From Cephaloticoccus capnophilus (lineage in GTDB: Bacteria > Verrucomicrobiota > Verrucomicrobiia > Opitutales > Opitutaceae), in the NCBI RefSeq assembly GCF_001580045.1, contig NZ_LSZP01000042.1, positions 1 through 64,000 of the forward strand: a stretch of 64,000 bases of DNA, given 5' to 3'. Position 1 is the stretch's first letter; the number at the start of each line of letters is the position of its first letter. This document shows positions 2,752-58,310 of the stretch, piece after piece. The notes under the pieces were generated by a model, which was given only the letters and a program-made list of their open reading frames with translations, searched no databases and had not been told where the DNA came from. The position numbers were made by a program, and so were the translations under genes.

Positions 2752-3114
2752 CCACTCACGTGTGCTGCGCACGCTCGCCGCCGCAGGCTGCTTTATTTGG
2801 CGGCGGGCTCGTTGGCGACAAGTGCGCTAGCCTTGGCGGCCCGCCGTCCATCGCTGCACCCATTCACAGAGCCGCTTGGTTGCCGTGCATTCGCACAGCA
2901 GCCAAGCGGCCCTGTGAAAAGGAACCCAAACTTGGAGCCGGGAGTTTACTGATGATTTTCCCCACCTCGCCCAAACGGGTTATCACTCTACTCCCTGTCG
3001 CAACGCGACAGGGAGAGTGTTTTCAAATTTGGGATTTCGCTTTCGCGCGATAGCGCGATGAGAAATCCCAAATTAAATGGAAGCGGTCACTGACCGCCGC
3101 CCCACGCGCAGTGG
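2752..3114 (+). repeat. Modular hairpin element, copy R1
   Basis: This 363-bp intergenic element fills most of the convergent gap between the TonB receptor and the minus-strand gene at 3200. Its ends carry inverted terminal motifs: CCACTCACGTGTG at 2752 and CCACGCGCAGTGG at 3102-3114. Inside are, in order, a module containing GCCGCAGGCTGCTTTATTTG, an imperfect 24-bp hairpin (2866-2916), a conserved linker (2931-2992), a 9-bp hairpin (2993-3013), a long hairpin of 13 bp plus an inner stem (3026-3074), and GCGGTCACTGACCGC. The same modules recur at 36720, 38780 and 43063. No protein-coding signal is seen; short frames here are artefacts of the repeat. Confidence 0.85.
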
Positions 3115-21155: not shown

Positions 21156-23314
21156 GCAGGGGGCGACTTGCGACATTCTACCTGCTATCCGTCAACGCGC
21201 TGGTACTCGACCAGCACGCTGCTGCGTGTTTGGGCAATGGTCACGACCATCTCCTTGAGTGCCGCTCCGGAGAGCTGGGTTGCGGGCGACTGACGGTAGT
21301 CGTCCCACCGAATCACCTGATAGGTGGCGTTGGCATCAATATGCTCCGGGTGCAGGGTGACGGAATCCGTGTCCGCCCCCGGTCCCCGCAACGCGACGAT
21401 GATTCCGCTCGAATCAGAATGGCGATGATGCTGGTAGGCCGTCCAAGCCTCCTTCTCCAAGTCCGGCGCGATCAGGCCGATCCGCTCTTCGGCCACGAAA
21501 GACCGAAGGCGCTTCATTTCGGAAACTGCCGCGATAGCATCGGCATACTCGGGATCTTGATCGTTTTCTGGCAGCACGCGGTAGGCCATGAATCCCGCAC
21601 AGAGAGCGCCGCGGATGGCATAGGCATCAAAGGTGGCGTTCAGTCCCGAATGGACCACAAGCCAGTGTCCAAGCCCCCAGCATTGGATCTGGTTGACGAT
21701 ATCCATCTCGGAGGCCCCTTCTTCGCCCACGTCAACTGCATCACTACGCGTGAGCATCACCGCGCGGCGCAGGGTTTCCAAGTCAATCCTGCGTCCACCC
21801 GAGGCGCAATTGTCGATCATTATGCCGGGGTGCGCAGCCCGTATCCGGTCCCATAGTGCGTAAAGCCCTTCGACATGTCGAATCTCCGTTATCCCTACCC
21901 GATCAGGAGCATCAGCAGCGTACCAAGCTTCAAGCGGAGCCATGTTGAAGTCCTGGCGATAAATGTCCGCGTTAAACTCGGTGATTAGAGAGGAGATCTT
22001 CTCAAAGGCCAGATCGACCGCGCGCGGATCGCCGAGGTTCAGAAGGATGCCTCTTCGCGTATACGGATCAGGGCTGTTTGGGTCGGGATAGCTGAGGAAC
22101 AACTCAGGGTGGGTACGCGGCCATTCGGTGTTCGGTCTAGCCCGCTCCGGATCCATCCAGATGATGAACTTCATCCCGAGCTCATGCGCACGGTCACTGA
22201 TCGGGCGCAGCCCACGCGGGAAATCGCTGCGCCGGATATTCCAATTGCCCACCTCATTATCCCAGTCGGTCGTGTTCCCATACCAACAGGCATCCACCCA
22301 ATGCGCTTCAAAACCCAGTGCGGCAGCACGCTCCATCGCTTCGATCTCAATCTGTTCGCTGACAACCCGGGTCACATGGTACTGATGCATCGTTCCGTGT
22401 GAGATTAAATTGAAGATATTCCCATCCGGCCCCCTTGGCACGACGTGCTTCATCAAGTGCGCACGTACTAGACGACGAGCTTGGTCGGCGGTCGCCTCGG
22501 GTGCCTGCGCCAACAGGATCGAAGGCAGCCTCACCGACTCCCCGGGTCGCAGCACGAACCCGACCTGCGGCAACCCGATTTCAATCTCAAGGGTTCCGGA
22601 AGCATGACGCAGCGTGGCATCCCAGCGCCCGCTCCAGCCAATACCGATAGCCAAGGAGTCATGCCTGTCTGTCAGCGCGAAGAAGGGGAAAATCCCGTCT
22701 GATGAGCGCCCGCCATTCGGCATCAGTGTAATGGTGTCAATATCGAGCTCTGTACGGTCGAGAAAGTCATCAAGACGTGCTTCCGAGCCTTTGTTTCCGT
22801 AAAAATCCACCGGGCCACGCGTCGGCCATGATGCCGCGAGCGAGCGCACCCCGGTCACCCGCTCCGAGGGTTTTGCGCTGTTATTGATGAGCGTGGGGAT
22901 CCACTCCGTAACCGCACCAATCGTTCGCCACTGCGCACGGATTTGCAGTTCCGGGGCTGTAGTGGACTGGAACACCCGCACCGTCCACCCTGCCTCCTGG
23001 GACGGCTCTTCTGCGATGGCAACAAAGTCATCAAGCGTCTTACCGCCGACGATCAAGCGCCCCGGCCATCGCTTATCAGGCAGGGCAGCGAAATCTAACG
23101 TTTTCTCGGTTTTGGAGGACATAGCTACAGTATTTTAGGGGTTGGAGGTGAAGCACTTCACCGCCAAAAGGCGGCGAATGAAAAATCGCGGAGTCTAAGT
23201 TAGCCTAGGGGAGCTGGAAAAGCCTAGCTGTGTGTCATTAGATTGGAGTCCCACAAGAGTAAAATCCAGGGGGCCGCCAACACCTAATCTTGGTCTCTTA
23301 GCCTTTTCCGTTCG
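21156..23314 (-). repeat. Tandem duplication, unit A (GH36 gene plus flanks)
   Basis: This unit of about 2.16 kb is repeated at 23575-25742. Homology starts at GCAGGGGGCGACTTGCGACA, just past the gene's 3' end, and runs through the gene and about 190 bases of its 5' flank to CTTTTCCGTTCG. A spacer of 260 bases (23315-23574), A/T-richer and without a recognised gene, separates the two units. Confidence 0.85.
21185..23122 (-). CDS. GH36 family alpha-galactosidase (copy A)
   Basis: Glycoside hydrolase of 645 residues that removes alpha-linked galactose (or a related sugar) from oligosaccharides. An N-terminal beta-domain is followed by a (beta/alpha)8 barrel. The family-36 features are WVDACWYGN, GLRPISDRAHELGMKFIIWM, the nucleophile region DIYRQDFN (Asp near 389; the usual KWD is RQD here) and the acid/base region NCASGGRRIDLETLRR with LTRSDAVD (Asp near 461). 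No signal peptide, so probably cytoplasmic. The GTGAAG/CTTCAC palindrome and the CCGCC/GGCGG hairpin lie 25-55 bases upstream of the ATG. This is the intact copy of a tandem pair. Confidence 0.88.
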   Translation of the reverse strand: MSSKTEKTLDFAALPDKRWPGRLIVGGKTLDDFVAIAEEPSQEAGWTVRVFQSTTAPELQIRAQWRTIGAVTEWIPTLINNSAKPSERVTGVRSLAASWPTRGPVDFYGNKGSEARLDDFLDRTELDIDTITLMPNGGRSSDGIFPFFALTDRHDSLAIGIGWSGRWDATLRHASGTLEIEIGLPQVGFVLRPGESVRLPSILLAQAPEATADQARRLVRAHLMKHVVPRGPDGNIFNLISHGTMHQYHVTRVVSEQIEIEAMERAAALGFEAHWVDACWYGNTTDWDNEVGNWNIRRSDFPRGLRPISDRAHELGMKFIIWMDPERARPNTEWPRTHPELFLSYPDPNSPDPYTRRGILLNLGDPRAVDLAFEKISSLITEFNADIYRQDFNMAPLEAWYAADAPDRVGITEIRHVEGLYALWDRIRAAHPGIMIDNCASGGRRIDLETLRRAVMLTRSDAVDVGEEGASEMDIVNQIQCWGLGHWLVVHSGLNATFDAYAIRGALCAGFMAYRVLPENDQDPEYADAIAAVSEMKRLRSFVAEERIGLIAPDLEKEAWTAYQHHRHSDSSGIIVALRGPGADTDSVTLHPEHIDANATYQVIRWDDYRQSPATQLSGAALKEMVVTIAQTRSSVLVEYQRVDG

Positions 23315-23574
23315 GCAACCAATATGCTGGATATTCAGCACAATACGGCGGCGCTGTTCTATAAAAAAGCCCGACAGGTAATTACCTATCATTTGCAACA
23401 GGAGAGCAGCGAAATGTTTGAAGATTGTATTAAATGGGATGAAAGCGATTTTTGGAGAAAAACGTAAAGGTAAGCGCGCTCGCGGAGCGGCAGGCCCCCG
23501 CCAGCTTTTTCACAATCTCCCTAAAATATTTCTTCCAAGCAGAACGCTTTCTGTCTCCGCCTACAGTATATACT

Positions 23575-25742
23575 GCAGGGGGCGACTTGCGACACTCTAC
23601 CTACTATCCGGAAACCCGATGATATTCAACCAGCACGCTGCTGCGTCTCTGGGCGATGGTCATAGCCAGTTCTTTAAGTGCCGCGCCGGAGATCCGGGTT
23701 GCGGGCAACTGACGGTAGTCATTCCATTTTGTCACCTGATACGTGCCCCCGACATCAATATACTCCGGGTGCAGGGTGACGGAATCTGCATTCGCCTCCG
23801 GCCCGCGCAAGGCCACGATAATCCCGCTTGCGTCGGAATGACGATGGTGCTGGAACGCCGCCAAGGCTTCTTTGTCCAAATCCGGCGCGATCAGGCCAAT
23901 GCGTTCCTCATCCATGAAAGGCCGCAGACGCTTGAGCTCGGCCAACGTCGCAATAAGATCGGCATATTCGGGATCTTGCTCGTTTTCCGGCAGATCGCGG
24001 TAGGCCATGAACCCCGTGCACAGTGCACTGCGGGTGGCGTAGGCATCAAAGGCATTGTTCAGCCCGGCATGGTCTGCGAGCCATTGCCCAAGCCCCCAGC
24101 ATTGGATCTGGTTGACTATATTCACTTTATCGCCCGCTTTGCCGCCCTCGTCGTCCACGTCCACGATATCACTGCGCGTAAGCACCGTCGCACGGCGCAA
24201 AGTTTCCAGATCAATCCTGCGCCCGCCGCCTGCGCAATTGTCGATCAGAATGCCAGGATGAGCGGCACGTATTCGATCCCACAGCGCGTAAAGCCCTTCG
24301 ATATGCCGGATTTCCGTGATCCCCACCCGGTCAGGGGCATCCGCTGCGTACCAGGCATCGAGCGGATACCCGCTGAAGTCCTGGCGATAGATATCCGTAT
24401 TGAATTCGGTGATTAGAGAGGAAACCGTCTCGAAAGCCAGATCCACCGCACGCGGGTCGCCAAGGTTCAGAAGCATGTCCCCCCTGTACCAAGGGTGCCG
24501 TTTATCATCATTAGGATAGTGAAGGAGGAGGTCCGGATAGGTGCGCGCCCATTCGGTGTCCGGTCGCACCCGTTCCGGCTCCATCCAGAAGATGAACTTC
24601 ATGCCCAGTTCATGTGCACGATCACTGATCGGGCGCAGCCCACGCGGGAAATCGCTGCGCCGTGCGTACCAGTTGCCAACCTCCTTGGCCCAATCAGGCA
24701 AGTTCCCATACCAGCAGGCATCAACCCAGTAGGCTTCAATGCCCATTGCCGCCGCGCGCTCCAGTGCCTCAATCTCGCCTTGTTCATTGGCAATGCGGGT
24801 GACGTGAAACCGATACATCGTTCCATGTGAGGTAAAAAGAGGGCTTTTCCCGTCGGGCGCCTTCGGCCTGACATGGTGAGTCAGATGCGAGCGCACCACG
24901 CGGCGGGCCTGGTCGGCGCTCGCACCAGGTGCCCGCGCCAGCAGAACCGAAGGCAACCTCACCGATTCCTGCGGACGAAGTACGAATCCGACCTGTGGCA
25001 ACCCGACTTCAACCTGCAAAGCCCCGGCTGCATGCCGCAGCTTGGCACACCAGCGCCCGCTCCAGCCAATACCGATGGCAAAGGCGTCATGCTGGTCGGT
25101 CAGGGCGAAGAAGGGAAAAATTCCATCTGACGAGCGTCCTCCGTGCGGTATCAGCTCAATTTCATCAATATCGAGTTCGATACGGTCTTCAAAGTCATGA
25201 ATACTTTCATGCGAGCCGTTGTTTCCGTAAAAATCCACTGGACCTCGTGTCGGCCATGCTGTCGCGAGCGAGCGCACTTCGGTTACCCGCTCCGAGGATT
25301 TTGCGCTGTTATTGATGAGCGTGGGGATCCACTCCGTAACCGCACCAATCGTTCGCCACTGGGCGCGGATTTGCAGCGTTGCACTAAAACGGACTGGAAC
25401 ACCCGCACCGTCCACGAGGCATCCGAGGACGGCTCTTCTGCGATGGCAACAAAGTCATCAAGCGTCTTACCGCCGACGATCAAGCGCCCCGGCCATCGCT
25501 TATCAGGCAGGGCAGCAAAATCTAACGTTTTCCCGGTTTTGGAGGGCATAGCTACAGTATTTTAGGGGGGTGGAGGTGGAGCACTTCACCGACAAAAGGC
25601 GGCGAACGAGAAATCGCGGAGTCTAAGTTAGCCTAGGGGAGGCGGAAAATCCTAGCTGTGTGTCATTAGGCTGGAATCGCACAATGGCAAAACCCAGGGA
25701 GACTCCTACACCTAATTTTGGTCTCTCAGTCTTTTCCGTTCG
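23575..25742 (-). repeat. Tandem duplication, unit B
   Basis: Second copy of unit A, in the same orientation. The 5' flank and first 40-odd codons are nearly identical to unit A, while the rest has drifted more. This uneven divergence suggests gene conversion at the 5' end. Confidence 0.85.
23604..25549 (-). pseudogene. GH36 alpha-galactosidase copy B, frameshifted
   Basis: Paralogue of the gene at 21185, roughly 80% alike in protein. The frame that begins at ATG 25549 (MPSKTGKTLDFAALP) matches copy A for about 50 codons and then leaves the homologous frame near 25380-25395. Between shared flanking words copy A has 15 bases and copy B 14, so one base is missing. The homologous frame continues from there to the stop at 23604 with the catalytic region intact (YRQDFSGYP, LTRSDIVD). 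Possibilities are a true frameshift mutation, a sequencing error, or translation of a shortened protein from an internal start. The loss would remove the start of the N-terminal domain. Confidence 0.75.
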
Positions 25743-35908: not shown

Positions 35909-36691
35909 GTGGATTTAAGCGTTTATCGAAATTTTCTGGCTGAGCTCGCCTACGCGAGCGGCAAGTTCCTCAAACCCTACTTCGCGCGCGGACTCGCCAA
36001 CGACCTCTCCGCACTCGCCGTTGAGCACAAAGCAGACCAAAGCCCCGTAACGGAAGCCGACCGCGACGCCGAAGCGCTCCTGCGCCAAAAAATCAAAACC
36101 CAATTCCCCGCGCACGGCATTATCGGCGAAGAACACGGCACCGAACGCGACGGCGCAGACTTCGTGTGGGTGCTCGACCCCATCGATGGGACGAAAAGTT
36201 TCATTAGCGGCGTGCCACTCTGGGGCACGCTCATCGCACTCCTGCACAACGGCGCGCCCATCCTCGGTGCCATTCACCAACCCACCCTCGGCCAACTCCT
36301 CATCGGCGACGGCCAAAGCGCCGAGCTCAATGGCCGCCGCGTCCGCACACGCACGACCACCACGCTAGCCGAGGCGACGCTGCTCACGAGCGACACCGTA
36401 AACCTCGACGCACGGATGGGAGCCGCGCGCGCCAGTGCCCTTTTGGGCCGTGCGCGAATCGCACGGACTTGGGGCGATTGCTACGGCTACCTCCTAGTCG
36501 CCACCGGCCAAGCCGACGCGATGCTCGACCCCATCATGAACCCTTGGGATATCGCTGCACTCGTGCCGATTATTCGCGGCGCAGGCGGCGTAATCAGCGA
36601 CTGGACCGGCGGCGCCGCCCACCGCGCAGACACCACCGTCGCAGCAGCCACCGCCGAACTCCACGCCACGCTGCTCACCGCGCTTTCCTAA
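35909..36691 (+). CDS. hisN: Inositol-monophosphatase family, probable histidinol-phosphatase
   Basis: Mg-dependent phosphatase of 260 residues starting at a GTG at 35909 (VDLSVYRNFLAEL). Metal-binding motifs: GIIGEEHGTE, WVLDPIDGTKSFISG (IMPase signature) and NPWDIAALVPIIRGAGG. The wording around VPLWGTLIALLHNGAP favours the HisN branch that releases phosphate from histidinol phosphate, over inositol phosphatase. No other his gene adjoins. A larger frame runs back to 35198 but overlaps the opposite-strand exonuclease and is rejected. Confidence 0.85.
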   Translation: MDLSVYRNFLAELAYASGKFLKPYFARGLANDLSALAVEHKADQSPVTEADRDAEALLRQKIKTQFPAHGIIGEEHGTERDGADFVWVLDPIDGTKSFISGVPLWGTLIALLHNGAPILGAIHQPTLGQLLIGDGQSAELNGRRVRTRTTTTLAEATLLTSDTVNLDARMGAARASALLGRARIARTWGDCYGYLLVATGQADAMLDPIMNPWDIAALVPIIRGAGGVISDWTGGAAHRADTTVAAATAELHATLLTALS

Positions 36692-36719
36692 CTACAGACC
36701 ACCAGTGAGCGGCACTTTT

Positions 36720-37053
36720 CCACTACGCATGGGGCGGCAGGCTGTGCCTGCACCCGTTTACCGAACGCTTGGCTGCCGTGCTTATGCACGGCAGCCAAGC
36801 GTTCGGTAGAAAGGATCCCAAACTTGGAGGCGGGAGTTTACTGGTGATTTTTCCCACCTCGCCCAAACGGGTTATCACTCTACTTTTCCCTTTTACTATT
36901 CTCCCTGTCGCAACGCGACAGGGGGAGTGCTTTCAAATTTGGGATTTCGCTTTCGCGCGATAGCGCGTTGCGAAATCCCAAATTGAATGGGCGGCGGGCC
37001 AACGAGCCCGCCGCCAAATAAAACAGCCTGCGGCTGCGCCCCACGCGTAGTGG
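36720..37053 (+). repeat. Modular hairpin element, copy R2
   Basis: A 334-bp element between the convergent hisN-like gene and rny. Terminal motifs CCACTACGCATGG (36720) and CCACGCGTAGTGG (37041-37053) are inverted. Contents: GGCAGGCTGTGCCTGC, a 22-bp perfect hairpin with a 4-nt loop (36760-36781 with 36786-36807), the shared linker (36823-36883), a 9-bp hairpin (36903-36923), the long AATTTGGGATTTCG hairpin (36936-36984) and a GCGGCGGGC/GCCCGCCGC hairpin ending in CAAATAAAACAGCCTGCGGC. A GGTCACTGACC palindrome follows just outside. Confidence 0.88.
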
Positions 37054-37085
37054 AGGCTCAGAGAGAACGGTCACTGACCGCCGCC

Positions 37086-38666
37086 TCACTCAGCGGTTTC
37101 GGTGAAGCGTTTCTCGCGGATGACTGTGATTTTAATCGTGCTCGGGTAGTCCAGCTCGGTCTCCACTTTTTGGCGCAACTCGCGGGCGATTTCGCGCGCG
37201 CGGTCGTCGTCCACTGCGTCGGGCGAAACCACAACGCGGATTTCGCGCCCGGCTTGAATCGCAAAGGATTGCTGCACGCCGTCGATCGCGTTCGCCAGTG
37301 CCTCCAGTCGTTCTAGGCGCTGGATGTAGTTGGTTACACTTTCGGCGCGCGCACCGGGCCGCACCGCCGAGATGGTATCCGCTAGAATAACGATGCCCGC
37401 GTAAATGGTCTCGGGCTTGACCTCCTCGTGGTGCGCCTCGACGGCGTTCACGACGATGGGCGTCTCGCCGTAGCGTTTGATAAAGGCTGCGCCGACTCGC
37501 GCGTGGCTGCCTTCGTAACCGGCGGGCGCGGCTTTACCGATGTCGTGGAGGAGCGCGGCGCGTTTGGCGACATTGGCATCGAGGCCGAGCTCGCTCGCAA
37601 TCATTGAGGCGAGGTAGGCGCACTCGATTAGGTGGTCGAGGACGTTTTGGTTGTAGGCGAAGCGATACTTGAGCTTGCCGAGCAGGCTAATGACCTCGGG
37701 GTGCAAGCCGTTGATGCTGAGGCGCGTAACCGCCTCCTCGCCGGCGAGGTCGGCACTGGAGTCGATTTCGCTCTGGGCGGTTTTTACAAATTCCTCAATG
37801 GTCGCGGGGTGGATGCGACCGTCCTTGACGAGGGCTTCGAGCGCGAGGCGGGCGACTTCGCGGCGCACCGGGTCGAAGGAGGAGATGAGGACGGTTTGCG
37901 GGGTCTCGTCGATTAGCAGCGTAACGCCAGTGGCGGCCTCGAAAGTCTTAATATTGCGGCCTTCGCGACCAATGATGCGGCCCTTCATCTCCTCGCTGGG
38001 AAGCTGAACGATGGTCGCGGAGAGGTCGTGGCTTTGGCGAACGGCGATCCGCTGCATGACGGTCACGAGTTTGTCGCGCGCCTGCATTTCGAGCTCTTGC
38101 TCGGAGCGCTCCATGATCTCGCGGCGCAGCTGGCGGAGCTCGTCTTGGCATTCGAGGATGACTTCCTCGCGCAGCGCACGCTTCATCGCCTCGGTGTCCA
38201 TCTTGGAGATGCCTTCGAGGCGTTCGCGGACGTTGGCAGAGAGCGCAGTGATGGTTTCGCGGGTCTGGCGAACGGCGGCGAGCTCACGGTTGAGCCGCTC
38301 GGTGCGTTGTTCGAGTTGGTGGTCGAGTAGCGCGAGCGATTCTTCGTGGGCGCGAATCTCGCGCAGCCGCACCTCGGCATCCACCTCTTTGGCGGCAAAC
38401 TCCTCGACTAGGGCAGCGCGTTTTTTACGAATGCGCTCGGCGGCCTTTTGGCGGACTTCTTCGGCAGCGACGGCGGCTTCGCGTTTGGCAACCTGTAGAA
38501 TCGTCTCCGCACTTTTGCGCGCTTCGCGGCGAATCGAGCGGGTGACCGCCCAAATCGACCAAAAGCCGATGCCCATGCCGACGAGGACGTAGACCGCCAA
38601 GCTCCAGTCGAGCCGCATAGCGGCGGCCAAGAAGACTAAGGTTAGGCTGATGGAAAGCGCGGGCAT
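37086..38666 (-). CDS. rny: Ribonuclease Y
   Basis: Membrane-bound endoribonuclease that starts mRNA decay; 526 residues. An N-terminal membrane helix (LAVYVLVGMGIGFWSIWAV) leads into a long coiled coil (about 45-205), then a KH domain near 215-275 (SEEMKGRIIGREGRNIKTFE), an HD domain with LLHDIGKAAP near 375 and EAHHEEVKPET, and the C-terminal domain. Length and order match RNase Y. ATG 38618 is an alternative start. The gene lies between two copies of the hairpin element (R2 and R3). Confidence 0.96.
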   Translation of the reverse strand: MPALSISLTLVFLAAAMRLDWSLAVYVLVGMGIGFWSIWAVTRSIRREARKSAETILQVAKREAAVAAEEVRQKAAERIRKKRAALVEEFAAKEVDAEVRLREIRAHEESLALLDHQLEQRTERLNRELAAVRQTRETITALSANVRERLEGISKMDTEAMKRALREEVILECQDELRQLRREIMERSEQELEMQARDKLVTVMQRIAVRQSHDLSATIVQLPSEEMKGRIIGREGRNIKTFEAATGVTLLIDETPQTVLISSFDPVRREVARLALEALVKDGRIHPATIEEFVKTAQSEIDSSADLAGEEAVTRLSINGLHPEVISLLGKLKYRFAYNQNVLDHLIECAYLASMIASELGLDANVAKRAALLHDIGKAAPAGYEGSHARVGAAFIKRYGETPIVVNAVEAHHEEVKPETIYAGIVILADTISAVRPGARAESVTNYIQRLERLEALANAIDGVQQSFAIQAGREIRVVVSPDAVDDDRAREIARELRQKVETELDYPSTIKITVIREKRFTETAE

Positions 38667-38779: not shown

Positions 38780-39073
38780 CCACTCCGCGTGGAGCGGCAG
38801 GCTGTGCCTGCACCCGTTCAATTTGGGATTTCGCCGCGCGCTGTAGCGCGAAAGCGAAATCCCAAATTTGAAAGCATTCCCCCTGTGCGTTGCACAGGGA
38901 GGGAAAAGTAGAGTGATAACCCGTTTGGGCGAAGTGGGGAAAATCACCAGTAAACTCCCGCTTCCAAGTTTGGGTTCCTTTCTACAGAGCCGCTTGCTTG
39001 CTGTGCGAATGCACAGCAAGCAAGCGGCTCTGTAAATGGGTGCAGCGACACGCTGCCGCACCACGCGCAGTGG
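38780..39073 (-). repeat. Modular hairpin element, copy R3 (inverted)
   Basis: A 294-bp copy with its linker in the opposite orientation to R1, R2 and R4 (38908-38968), lying in the divergent gap between rny and rodA. Terminal motifs: CCACTCCGCGTGG and CCACGCGCAGTGG. The AATTTGGGATTTCG hairpin (38820-38868), a CCCTGTGC/GCACAGGG stem (38881-38899) and a 23-bp perfect hairpin with a 4-nt loop (38984-39033) are present. Stem sequences differ from R2 but still pair. The promoters of rny and rodA must lie around or inside it. With its flanks this explains the gap 38667-39164. Confidence 0.88.
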
Positions 39074-43062: not shown

Positions 43063-43448
43063 CCACTACGCGTGGAGCGGCAGCGTGTCGCTGCACCCAT
43101 TCAATTTGGGGATTGGCCCCGTCGCTTCGCGACGAAACCAATCCCCAAATTTGAAGTCCCTTCCCTTGTCGCGTTGCGACAAGGGAGGGGGAAGGAAATG
43201 AGGAGAGCCCTCGGGCTTCCCGAGACGGGAAGAATCACGAATAAATCCACGTCCCAAACTTGGAGGCGGGAGTTTACTGGTGATTTTTCCCACCTCGCCC
43301 AAATGGGTTATCACTCTACGCTCCCTTTTACTACTCGCCCTGTCGCAACGCGACAGGGGAGAGTGCTTTCAAATTTGGGATTTCGCTTTCGCACGATAGC
43401 GCGATGCGAAATCCCAAATTAAATGGAAGCGGTCACTGACCGCCGCCC
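43063..43448 (+). repeat. Modular hairpin element, composite copy R4
   Basis: About 386 bp from CCACTACGCGTGG (43063) to the dnaJ stop. It holds two sets of the A and B hairpins. The first set has altered stems: CAATTTGGGGATTGG with CCAATCCCCAAATTTG (43102-43153) and CCCTTGTCGC with GCGACAAGGG (43163-43185). The second set (43338-43420) has the standard stems. The linker is at 43257-43319. It ends with GCGGTCACTGACCGC (43429-43443) and lacks the second terminal motif. It fills the gap between rfaE2 and dnaJ. Confidence 0.85.
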
Positions 43449-50409: not shown

Positions 50410-52148
50410 ACACCCTCAGTACCCGATGCTTCCTAGTCCCCGATAAATGCAAACAAAAATACCTGCCAACACTAGTGGGAGATTCCCTTTAAGAGCCATC
50501 TTTCTCGCGTCGCTATTTCCTGCACTCCTCGGGCTATGCTGCGGGCTATTTATTATGCCGCCATATATAGATCATGATACCGAGGTTGGCTTGACGGCTT
50601 GGGGTAATTATAAGAACGGCGGCACTTGGAACACTGTGGTAAGAGCCGATCCTGAAAATATCGCAAACAGTATCGAACAAAGTCTCACTTGGTGGCCTCC
50701 TGGACAATACCTACCATTGGGACTTTTATACTCTGCGGGACTATCGGTCGGCATGGCCGCGATAGCTATAGCTTTTCTTTCTACCCTCTCACTGGGGGCC
50801 GGTGGCGCATTGTTAGTAAAAGAACTTAGTCAGGAGAGCGATATATGTATCCTGCCTTGGGTTTCCGCTGCGCTTGCCTCCTCCCATTATGCACTGATAA
50901 ACTTCCATCACTTTTGGGGAGGGGAAACTGGGCTAATGGCCGTGCTCCCTTGGATAGTTCTTGCTGCTTATAAATTACGGCATCGCACTCTCGCTTTAAT
51001 CCTATTCCTCCCCCCGCTTTTTCTGCTAGGATCCTTTATCAAACACGCCTTTGCAATTCACTCTTTTTGTATACTCGCATTTCTTTGGCTAGAAAAGAGC
51101 AGAGAGGAATTAAGCCTCTCAGATAAAAAAATAACAACCCTCAAAAAGACTCTAAAAATAGTAGCCCCTCTATTCGCAGTAGGATTGCTCTATCTCGGTC
51201 TCAGGCACTATTTTATCGAGACGACAGTTACTCCGCTGCGTTTAGGTGAGCCCTTATTTGGCTTCACCACCTATCTGGGGTATAGTGCATGGGCCCCACT
51301 TATGGCCCCGTGGGGAATCGGCTCACTCGCAGACAGATTCGCTCCACGCCTTTTTGAACTTAACGGGACTAGGATATGGGAACATATAGGACTGGCTCTA
51401 TCTATTCTCTCGCCCTTGGCGATCGGATTTTACACTTGGCTCTCATTTCGAAAAAGTCCGCTAATTTCGCTAACGGGATTAGCTGCTTTACTCACAGCTC
51501 TAATCCATCTTTATATCTATCACTCGGGAGGAGTAATTGAGCTTCGAGATAGGTATTATCAATTCCCAGCATTCCTATTTTTAGCAGTCGTTGCCACCTA
51601 CATATATCAAATTGGCTGGAAAATGCGCACGGCTAGACTTCTCCTTGGGTTATGTATTTTAATCGGGTCAGTAAATGTCGTCAAATCAGGATTTGCTTCA
51701 AAAAGATGGATTCCTATTAATTATAGGATGGGCGTAGCAAGCTTTGTTCCCGACTCAGTCATTGAAGATATTCATACCCTATTAAGCGAAGCACCAGATT
51801 CTGTTTTGGTTATTCCGCATCCATCCCTAGATGTTAATTTATCTTTATACCCGCTGTCTTCAACTCGTATCCTAGCTACCTATGGCGAAAGCAGAGAGTT
51901 ACCTATGCCGAAATCACTTCATGGGCGCTCCCCTCTAATTGTGATTGCCTCCCCTAAAAGGGACATTCTAGGGGCAAAATCCGCGGCATCACGCTTCGCA
52001 GACTACTCTGCAGATGAGTGGGAAAGTCATGAGTCAGGAGGCTGGCTTTTTCTAAAAACAAAACAGCCGCTGACTCACTAAATAGCCCAAGCGCGACTAC
52101 TGCTCCCGCTACTCGCCTCAGTGCCAGATACTGCGCTCGGCGAGCGGG
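50410..52148 (+). repeat. Tandem duplication, unit 1 (1739 bp)
   Basis: First of two direct repeats (second at 52149-53895). Both run from ACACCCTCAGTA through a whole membrane-protein gene to the end of the nitroreductase gene. The two units differ by 8 bases: one codon-triple insertion (9 bases) less one base upstream. Confidence 0.9.
50447..52081 (+). CDS. Polytopic membrane protein, possible GT-C type glycosyltransferase (copy 1)
   Basis: Protein of 544 residues with about ten membrane helices and a soluble C-terminal part. After the first helix comes PPYIDHDTEVGLTAWGNYK, an acidic first loop as in GT-C glycosyltransferases, then LTWWPPGQYLPLGLL, like their PPG motif. HFWGGETGLMAVLPWIVLAA and ELRDRYYQFPAFLFL follow. 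The resemblance is to lipid-sugar-using enzymes (ArnT/PMT type), but no family was firmly recognised. Codon and base use is clearly more A/T-rich than the neighbours, suggesting transfer. A nearly identical copy follows at 52185. Confidence 0.75.
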   Translation: MQTKIPANTSGRFPLRAIFLASLFPALLGLCCGLFIMPPYIDHDTEVGLTAWGNYKNGGTWNTVVRADPENIANSIEQSLTWWPPGQYLPLGLLYSAGLSVGMAAIAIAFLSTLSLGAGGALLVKELSQESDICILPWVSAALASSHYALINFHHFWGGETGLMAVLPWIVLAAYKLRHRTLALILFLPPLFLLGSFIKHAFAIHSFCILAFLWLEKSREELSLSDKKITTLKKTLKIVAPLFAVGLLYLGLRHYFIETTVTPLRLGEPLFGFTTYLGYSAWAPLMAPWGIGSLADRFAPRLFELNGTRIWEHIGLALSILSPLAIGFYTWLSFRKSPLISLTGLAALLTALIHLYIYHSGGVIELRDRYYQFPAFLFLAVVATYIYQIGWKMRTARLLLGLCILIGSVNVVKSGFASKRWIPINYRMGVASFVPDSVIEDIHTLLSEAPDSVLVIPHPSLDVNLSLYPLSSTRILATYGESRELPMPKSLHGRSPLIVIASPKRDILGAKSAASRFADYSADEWESHESGGWLFLKTKQPLTH

Positions 52149-52152
52149 ACAC
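52118..52152 (-). pseudogene. Relict tail of the nitroreductase gene
   Basis: Duplicate of the last 12 codons of the gene at 53865 (VPLAERSIWH then stop, against VPLAERIIWH). It is left between the two membrane-protein copies and shows where the duplication break lies. Confidence 0.85.
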
Positions 52153-52184
52153 CCTCAGTAACCGATGCTTCCTAGTCCCGATAA

Positions 52185-53828
52185 ATGCAAACAAAAACAC
52201 CTGCCAACACTAGTGGGAGACTTCCTTTAAGAGCCATCTTTCTCGCGTCGCTATTTCCTGCACTCCTCGGGCTATGCTGCGGGTTATTTATTATACCGCC
52301 ATATATAGATTTTGATACCGATGTTGGCTTAACGGCTTGGGGTAATTATAAGAACGGCGGCACTTGGAACACTGTAGTAAGAGCCGATCCTGAAAATATC
52401 GCAAACAGTATCGAAGAAAGTCTCACTTGGTGGCCTCCTGGGCAATACCTACCACTGGGACTTTTGCACTCTGCGGGACTATCGGTCGGCATGGCCGCGA
52501 TAACCGTAACTTTTCTTTCTACCCTCTCACTGGGGATAGGGGGAGCATTATTAGTAAAAGAACTTAGCCGGGGGGGGAGGGGGGGGGATATACGTACCCT
52601 GCCTTGGGTTTCCGCTGCGTTTACCTCCTCTCATTATGCACTGATAAACTTCCATCACTTTTGGGGAGGGGAAACTGGGCTAATGGCCGTGCTCCCTTGG
52701 ATAGTTCTTGCTGCTTATAAACTACGGCATCGCACTCTCTCTTTAATTCTATGCCTCCCCCCTCTTTTTTTGCTAGGATCCTTTATCAAACACGCCTTTG
52801 CAATTCACTCGATCTGCATAATCACATTTCTTTGGCTAGAAAAGAGCAGAGAAGAATTAAGCCTCTCAGATAAAAAAATAACAACCCTTAAAAAGACTCT
52901 AAAAATAGTAGCCCCTCTATTCGCAGTAGGATTGATCTATCTCGGTCTCAGGCACTACTTTATCGAGACGACAGTTACTCCGCTGCGTTTAGGTGAGCCC
53001 TTATTTAGCGTCACAGCCTATCTGGGGTATACTGCATGGGCCCCACTTATGGCCCCGTGGGGAATCGCTTCACTCGCGGACGGATTCGCCCCACTTCTTT
53101 TTGAACTTAACGGGATTAGGATATGGGAACATATAGGACCGGTTCTATCTATTCTCTCGCCCTTGGCGATCGGATTTTACACTTGGCTCTCAGTTAGGAA
53201 AAGTCCGCTACTTTCCCTAACGGGCGTAGCTGCTTTACTCACAGCCCTAATCCATTTCTATATCTATCACTCGGGAGGAGTGATTGAGCTTCGGGATAGG
53301 TATTATCAATTCCCAGCGTTCCTATTTTTAGCAGTCGCTGCCACCTATATATATCAAAGTGGCTGGAAAATGCGCACGGCTAGACTCCTCCTTGGAGTAA
53401 GTATTTTAATCGGGTCAGCAAATGTCGTCCTAACAGGGCGTACTGCAAGAAAATGGATTCCTATTAATCATAAGATGGGCGTCGCAAGCTTCGTCCCCGA
53501 CTCAGTAGTTGAAGATATTCATGCCCTATTAAGTGAAGTAACTGATTCTGTCTTGGTTATTCCGTATCCATCCCTAGATGCTTATTTATCTTTATACCCG
53601 CTGCATTCAACTCGCATCCTAACTAACTATGGAGAGGAAAGAGCGTTGAGTTTGCCAAAATCATTTAATGGGCGCTCCCCTCTAGTTGTGATTGCCTTCC
53701 CTAAAAGGGAAATTCTAGCGGCAAAAGAATTTGCATCACGCTTCGTCGACTACTCTGCAGATGAGTGGGAAAGCCATGAGTCAGGGAGCATGTTTTTTCT
53801 AAAAACAAAACAGCCGCTGACTCATTAA
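52185..53828 (+). CDS. Polytopic membrane protein, possible GT-C type glycosyltransferase (copy 2)
   Basis: Paralogue (547 residues) of the gene at 50447, about 90% alike by eye. Main differences: the acidic loop reads PPYIDFDTDVGL, and a three-residue insertion makes SRGGRGGDIRT where copy 1 has SQESDICI. The insertion is encoded by a G tract (52570-52587), giving a site where slippage would change frame. Substitutions are spread through the gene with the frame intact, so both copies seem to be maintained. Function as for copy 1. Confidence 0.75.
   Translation: MQTKTPANTSGRLPLRAIFLASLFPALLGLCCGLFIIPPYIDFDTDVGLTAWGNYKNGGTWNTVVRADPENIANSIEESLTWWPPGQYLPLGLLHSAGLSVGMAAITVTFLSTLSLGIGGALLVKELSRGGRGGDIRTLPWVSAAFTSSHYALINFHHFWGGETGLMAVLPWIVLAAYKLRHRTLSLILCLPPLFLLGSFIKHAFAIHSICIITFLWLEKSREELSLSDKKITTLKKTLKIVAPLFAVGLIYLGLRHYFIETTVTPLRLGEPLFSVTAYLGYTAWAPLMAPWGIASLADGFAPLLFELNGIRIWEHIGPVLSILSPLAIGFYTWLSVRKSPLLSLTGVAALLTALIHFYIYHSGGVIELRDRYYQFPAFLFLAVAATYIYQSGWKMRTARLLLGVSILIGSANVVLTGRTARKWIPINHKMGVASFVPDSVVEDIHALLSEVTDSVLVIPYPSLDAYLSLYPLHSTRILTNYGEERALSLPKSFNGRSPLVVIAFPKREILAAKEFASRFVDYSADEWESHESGSMFFLKTKQPLTH
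52570..52587 (+). repeat. G8-A-G9 homopolymer tract inside a gene
   Basis: Eight G, one A and nine G in a row, in frame as Arg-Gly-Gly-Arg-Gly-Gly (about residues 129-134). Copy 1 has CAGGAGAGC at this place. Such tracts are prone to slipped-strand mutation and could switch the gene on and off. Confidence 0.85.
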
Positions 53829-54440: not shown

Positions 54441-54560
54441 GGGCAAAGGGCCTAGCCAGAATCCCTGATTTCACAATCCCCAGAGCGCTTTATTAGAAAG
54501 CGCAAAAATAGACGATTCCGCCAAAACGGAATGTTATTGGGAAATCCGCTGCCGCCCTAG

Positions 54561-54585
54561 GGTCTTTTCCCGTTTCAAACGCGAG
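54561..54585 (+). repeat. Family-2 repeat arm
   Basis: GGTCTTTTCCCGTTTCAAAC and the following GCGAG match the arm at 58111 with one change. CCCTAG occurs on both sides (54555 and 54590), so a short inverted repeat encloses it. A GCGCTTT/AAAGCGC hairpin lies nearby at 54487-54505. Confidence 0.6.
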
Positions 54586-54626
54586 CAGGCCCTAGCTCCT
54601 CCCGCCTTAATCCGCAGGAAGAGCGA

Positions 54627-58093: not shown

Positions 58094-58193
58094 GACTGAC
58101 TAAGTCCTAGGGTCTGTTCCCGTTTCAAACGCGAGCCGCGCCGGAGCCAGATTTTGTGCGCAACGCGGCGCTCGCTTGAAACCGGAACAGACC
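58091..58193. repeat. Family-2 inverted repeat beside hemA
   Basis: A TAGGACT/AGTCCTA hairpin (58091-58109) covers the hemA stop codon. Then GGTCTGTTCC at 58111 is matched in inverted form by GGAACAGACC at 58184-58193, with further pairing (CGTTTCAAACGCGAG against CTCGCTTGAAACCG). The gap to nrdA (58094-58310) is filled by it. Confidence 0.75.
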
Positions 58194-58310
58194 GGCTAGC
58201 AGCCGGCGAGCTTCGTAGAAGCGAGTAAAGTCGGCCCCAGCAACGGGACTGAGACCGACGCAAGCAGTTGCGACCGAAATAGGGCGCTTTCTTTGTGCGA
58301 CGCCTGCCGC

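Follow-up and report, generated by a model that had tools for sequence, protein, structure and literature searches.

What is the palindromic sequence that lies between the inositol-monophosphatase gene (forward strand, ending at 36691) and the RNase Y gene (37086-38666, reverse strand) of Cephaloticoccus capnophilus, and how did it get there? The window analysed here, 64,000 nucleotides of one contig, belongs to a 2.09-Mb draft genome in 66 contigs. The first-pass annotation of this window had noticed four places that share a linker and several hairpins, and this combination is indeed present at all four sites, far beyond chance. Table 1 lists these copies together with the parts of the best-defined one.

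Table 1. Element copies in the window and anatomy of the copy at 36720-37053.
Feature	Position	Strand	Remark
Element copy with both terminal motifs	36720..37053	+	between convergent genes
Left terminal motif CCACTACGCATGG, consensus CCACTRCGCGTGG	36720..36732	+	
Left outer hairpin slot, filled by GCAGGCTGTGCCTGC	36737..36751	+	
Left inner hairpin slot, ACCGAACGCTTGG... type, 48 nt	36760..36807	+	
Linker and spacer, AGAAAGGATCCCAAACTTGGAGGCGGGAGTTTACTGGTGATTTTTCCCACCTCGCCCAAACGGGTTATCACTCTACTTTTCCC...	36808..36900	+	
Central hairpin CCCTGTCGCAACGCGACAGGG	36903..36923	+	well kept across both species
Right inner hairpin slot, AAATTTGGGATTTCGC... type	36935..36984	+	
Right outer hairpin slot, long form: GGCGGCGGGCC..., then CAGCCTGCGGCTG	36990..37037	+	
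Right terminal motif CCACGCGTAGTGG	37041..37053	+	
Element copy with both terminal motifs, inverted	38780..39073	-	
Element copy, alternative longer left end, canonical right end	2752..3114	+	
Rearranged element copy	43063..43448	+	junction of cytidylyltransferase-like gene and dnaJ

Linker, central hairpin and right inner hairpin are common to all four window copies. For the three that lie on the same strand, linker identity is about 83-100%. The remaining copy, 38780-39073, is inverted relative to the others, as had been stated, and occupies a rare divergent junction between the RNase Y gene (reverse) and an FtsW/RodA gene (forward). Inverted CCACT ends had been ascribed to all four copies; both ends are found at 36720-37053 and 38780-39073, but not at 2752-3114 and 43063-43448. 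The profile match of the 2752-3114 copy spans 2844-3114. The copy at 43063-43448 has a canonical left end and a left half that resembles an inverted right half; it is normal from the linker (43253) on, and is without the right terminal motif CCACGCGYAGTGG.

"At least four copies" proved to be a correct but very low estimate. Allowing up to 3 mismatches, the linker pattern matches 101 times in the genome (48 forward, 53 reverse), so it is not limited to the four places, and the reversed pattern, used as a control at the same tolerance, matches nowhere. A fifth copy lies just beyond the window, at contig position 64894. With a profile built from full copies, 60 elements were found in 815 kb of this genome, which extrapolates to about 150 in total; 778 kb of C. 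primus yielded 66. Some elements sit at contig ends, where the assembly stopped.

A full element has a modular layout: it begins with the terminal motif CCACTRCGCGTGG, an outer hairpin and an inner hairpin of about 50 nt, continues with the linker and the central hairpin CCCTGTCGCAACGCGACAGGG, and closes with a second inner hairpin, a second outer hairpin and the terminal motif CCACGCGYAGTGG. The terminal motifs, a CCACT end on the left and an AGTGG end on the right, are in inverted orientation and thus form terminal inverted repeats (CCACTRCGCGTGG...CCACGCGYAGTGG), often together with inverted outer hairpins. Among 80 copies with both ends recognised, the length is mostly 283-308 bp, with longer forms up to 402. 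Each slot accepts several hairpin types of largely unrelated sequence: at least four in the outer slots, at least three in the left inner and at least two in the right inner slot. The left outer slot of other copies, for example, carries GCAGCGTGTCGCTGC, GCGGTCAGTGACCGC, or a longer form of AGCCGCAGGCTG plus GGCGGGC, and the left inner slot carries types beginning with ACAGAGCCGCTTGG, AGATTTTGGTTTCG or AATTTGGG. In 75 complete copies we count 36 slot combinations; the mutual information between slots is near the level of shuffled labels, i.e., the combinations are nearly random. Outside CCACT, alternative tails recur (e.g., ATACGCTTTTTTC, TCAGAGGTCACAGACCT and CTCTCTGAGCTT). Left and right tails of one element are seldom alike (2 out of 19, not above chance). 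Owing to these variable tails, the true element ends are uncertain.

Some further repeats were observed along the way. Paired CCACT terminal motifs about 200 bp apart and without a linker (L274 394-600, G000:C33) possibly represent a shorter subtype. A second palindromic family, CTAGGGTCTGTTCCCGTTTCAAACGCGAGC with an inverted partner arm, occurs at window position 58105-58200, with single arms at 54556-54586 and 2703-2733; another 24 intergenic arms were found elsewhere in 440 kb (reversed control: 1), and this family doubles as the outer tail of some linker elements. The window also holds tandem duplications at 21156-25742 and 50439-52879, each of two copies that are 77-95% identical over the stretches compared.

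How far does the family reach beyond this genome? Among 141 relatives, the linker as a query finds only its own genome. The whole element finds more, namely 107 matches in C. primus CAG34, the best full-length ones about 70-74% identical and with the same layout; in the other seven genus members it yields only chance-level matches. With a C. primus element as the query, 2 of 372 Opitutales genomes match, and these are the same two Cephaloticoccus species. C. primus and C. capnophilus are the named species of the genus; C. primus CAG34 is the closest of the relatives searched, and the RNase Y gene of the window is 90% identical to that of C. primus (NZ_LSZQ01000048.1). Cultured Cephaloticoccus isolates, Cv41 and Cag34, come from Cephalotes turtle ants (PMC5840417). 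The family had not been recognised from the sequence. The Rfam searches gave no match in the window at the gathering score, and nothing credible for seven loci at a relaxed threshold. Neither the linker in IMG/VR nor the element in plasmid and phage records gave a match; the linker was also without a match in GTDB contigs, a set from which its own genome is possibly absent.

The spot downstream of the RNase Y gene was compared across the genus. In most other members, a queF-like gene, so labelled by position and sequence, lies between the inositol-monophosphatase and RNase Y genes, and in this genome and C. primus the element takes its place (window 36691-37086). Beside the queF-like gene, several relatives (L214, L216, L219) carry inverted repeats rich in GTAG/CTAC, e.g., AGTAGCGGGTAGCGAGTA...CTCGCTACCCGCTACTCACTAC, which look REP-like; those related genomes have Y1 transposases.

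The two species allow a comparison of orthologous sites. Neighbouring orthologous genes with an intergenic gap between them gave 79 junctions, and at 68 of these neither species has an element. Of the 11 occupied junctions, seven carry an element in C. primus only, one in this genome only, and three in both. Where the site is empty, the gap is about 170-460 nt shorter. Presence of copies varies between the two species, and mobility is supported by this presence and absence. It had been proposed to read element ends and target duplication from such empty sites; occupancy indeed differs, but divergence of the intergenic DNA between the species is too great to define either. Sharing at three of the 79 junctions is above chance (p=0.006), which means that some copies may predate the species split. 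Two more shared sites among selected loci bring the number to five, one of them downstream of the RNase Y gene, and at four of these five the core orientation is opposite. Elements of this genome share 84% identity on average and those of C. primus 75%, as against 64% for comparisons across the species; at four shared sites, the two copies resemble each other no more than cross-species pairs drawn at random. In a tree of 123 elements, the split follows the species with one species change (support 0.99). This pattern could result either from separate insertion bursts into similar permissive sites, or from older copies that were homogenised and sometimes inverted. Since shared sites are in the minority and mostly differ in orientation, we favour separate bursts.

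Placement relative to genes was determined on the draft assemblies with a simple home-made gene caller. None of 126 elements in 1.59 Mb of the two species overlaps a predicted gene by more than 60 nt, while predicted coding sequence makes up 82% of the DNA in this genome and 81% in C. primus. Elements are enriched in convergent junctions (41 of 114 elements vs. 154 of 885 junctions, p=2.4e-7) and depleted in divergent ones (8 of 114 vs. 177 of 885, p=8e-5). Their median distance from stop codons is 45 nt. Between tandem genes no orientation bias is seen, with 33 co-directional and 32 anti-directional elements. Intrinsic terminators are equally frequent at gene ends with and without an element, and the idea that elements replace such terminators was rejected on these grounds. 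The pneumococcal repeats BOX, RUP and SPRITE show a convergent bias as well, which has been interpreted as that of tolerated mobile elements (PMC3049150).

The elements fold strongly, with about -185 kcal/mol compared to -101 for random 300-nt genomic pieces. Mean energies are nearly equal on both strands, and strand asymmetry as a sign of RNA selection was rejected accordingly. Within a copy, the left inner arms are 94% complementary, vs. 82% when arms are swapped between copies; for C. primus the values are 93% and 80%. Such covariation of hairpin arms is by itself not a proof of RNA selection: the same outcome would be reached by template switching, or by conversion inside a palindrome. Both A-C and G-T mismatches are common in some hairpin pairs of this genome. 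The excess of G-T over A-C (63 to 38) is weak, comes from a subset of the hairpins in this genome, and is based on counts that are not independent; the C. primus counts are too few for this comparison.

A mobilising enzyme was sought with five Pfam families, covering Y1_Tnp, DDE_Tnp_1, rve, RVT_1 and tyrosine recombinases. Y1_Tnp has a single match in this genome, the tnpA of an IS605-like tnpA/tnpB remnant (L143 180-1930, G000:C59) that is unrelated to the element, has no element ends nearby, and has tnpA next to tnpB, with tnpA apparently frameshifted before its expected catalytic end. C. primus is without a Y1_Tnp match. Neither species has DDE_Tnp_1 or RVT_1; rve gives one fragment and one weak match here and none in C. 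primus. Tyrosine recombinases number two in this genome and three in C. primus, and two per species are probably XerC/XerD. The families searched yielded no intact candidate transposase, and hence none with element ends beside it. Insertion signatures were sought in 79 copies: direct repeats of 2-12 nt at the CCACT/AGTGG boundary are not above the level of shuffled pairs, and no longer shared word occurs within 60 nt of it. Possibly the actual boundary is located farther out than CCACT/AGTGG, within the variable tails.

Taking these facts together, we consider it probable that the element is a composite, non-coding mobile repeat of about 300 bp, similar to MITEs or BIMEs, which was amplified separately in each species and shuffled by recombination, and whose mobiliser has been lost or was not recognised. 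In such a course of events, the element would have multiplied in each of the two Cephaloticoccus species at about the time they separated or later, and copies would persist where they do least harm, a median 45 nt past stop codons. Hairpin modules would be exchanged by recombination between copies, and the two arms of each hairpin would be kept matched by recombination or template switching. The mobilising enzyme may be gone, or may belong to a type outside the families searched. Any effect on the host would presumably arise from the hairpins, which are strong and alike on both strands, either in the DNA or in 3' untranslated RNA, and not from an encoded product. The elements might instead be old, vertically inherited repeats that underwent little transposition, with gene conversion keeping them uniform in each species (concerted evolution). 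The five junctions occupied in both species, with sharing above chance, speak for this, as do species-specific sequence even at shared sites, modules near linkage equilibrium, and the lack of an intact transposase in the families searched. However, eight of the 11 occupied junctions are filled in a single species, and an opposite core at four of five shared sites is not predicted by simple inheritance, except if the core can flip between the inverted ends; on balance, we regard concerted evolution of old copies as unlikely. The same doubt, somewhat stronger, applies to a spread without any transposase, where both spread and uniformity would be due to host recombination or replication acting on the element's own hairpins, via cruciform cleavage or template switching, with cassettes moving between fixed slots.

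A selected RNA element, whose transcribed hairpins protect mRNA 3' ends or block transcription into a convergent neighbour, would fit the position shortly after stop codons and between convergent genes, the very strong folding and the covarying arms. It would hardly explain why neither folding energy nor orientation to genes shows a strand preference, why terminators are as frequent with an element as without, and why presence is mostly not conserved between the species; moreover, a like placement of pneumococcal repeats was interpreted as insertion tolerance (PMC3049150), so that we give such a function little credit, about as much as a spread without transposase. Much less probable still is a REP/BIME family mobilised by a RAYT (Y1) transposase. 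The intergenic, palindromic, high-copy mosaic resembles BIMEs as described in PMC2817692, and one Y1_Tnp match exists in this genome. This sole match, however, is the apparently frameshifted IS605-like remnant without element ends, C. primus holds more than 100 element matches and no Y1_Tnp match, and a GTAG tag is not conserved since the base after CCACT varies (CCACTA 93, CCACTG 71, CCACTC 12). Ordinary segmental duplication of flanking genes can practically be dismissed: apart from the repeats themselves nothing points to it, similarity goes no further than the element ends or short tails, the neighbouring genes of the window copies bear no relation to one another, and elements in one or the other orientation lie at about 100 places.

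The relation to known systems was judged accordingly. MITEs and REP/BIME elements had been named as possible classes; the likeness to a dispersed intergenic palindromic family stands, but the signs of a REP/RAYT system and of a MITE with target site duplication (TSD) were not found. Filing under REP/RAYT is unwarranted, membership among TSD-generating MITEs is not supported, and the most fitting description is that of a new family of intergenic repeats, composite and palindromic. BIMEs of REP units with RAYT, known from enterobacteria and pseudomonads, are likewise intergenic palindrome mosaics in more than 100 copies; the hairpins here, in contrast, are 15-50 nt long, unrelated in sequence and arranged in fixed slots around a linker, the GTAG tag is not conserved, and neither species yielded a working Y1 transposase. 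BOX of Streptococcus pneumoniae is similarly modular, abundant, strongly folded and enriched in convergent junctions (PMC3049150), a likeness in organisation and placement only. Unlike BOX, no boxB-like repeat array is seen here, the element is roughly symmetrical with hairpins at both ends, and no insertion sequence with matching ends was found. Neisserial Correia elements and NIMEs, compared by description, are also composite and intergenic, the former with terminal inverted repeats (PMC3049150), but here a slot can hold any of several hairpins, and there is no visible target duplication. CGTC-tagged palindromic repeats are high-copy palindromes, too, with no dedicated transposase known (PMC3733652); those are short REP-like units, whereas the element here has about 300 bp and a linker.

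From a practical point of view, the elements make up roughly a tenth of the non-coding DNA, and with this share and their occurrence at contig ends they affect assembly and the annotation of gene ends. From a biological point of view, culturable turtle-ant symbionts carry an abundant, modular, mobile-looking repeat despite few recognisable transposases. Two sister species with separately uniform families constitute a natural test of transposition bursts, gene conversion and hairpin-driven recombination.
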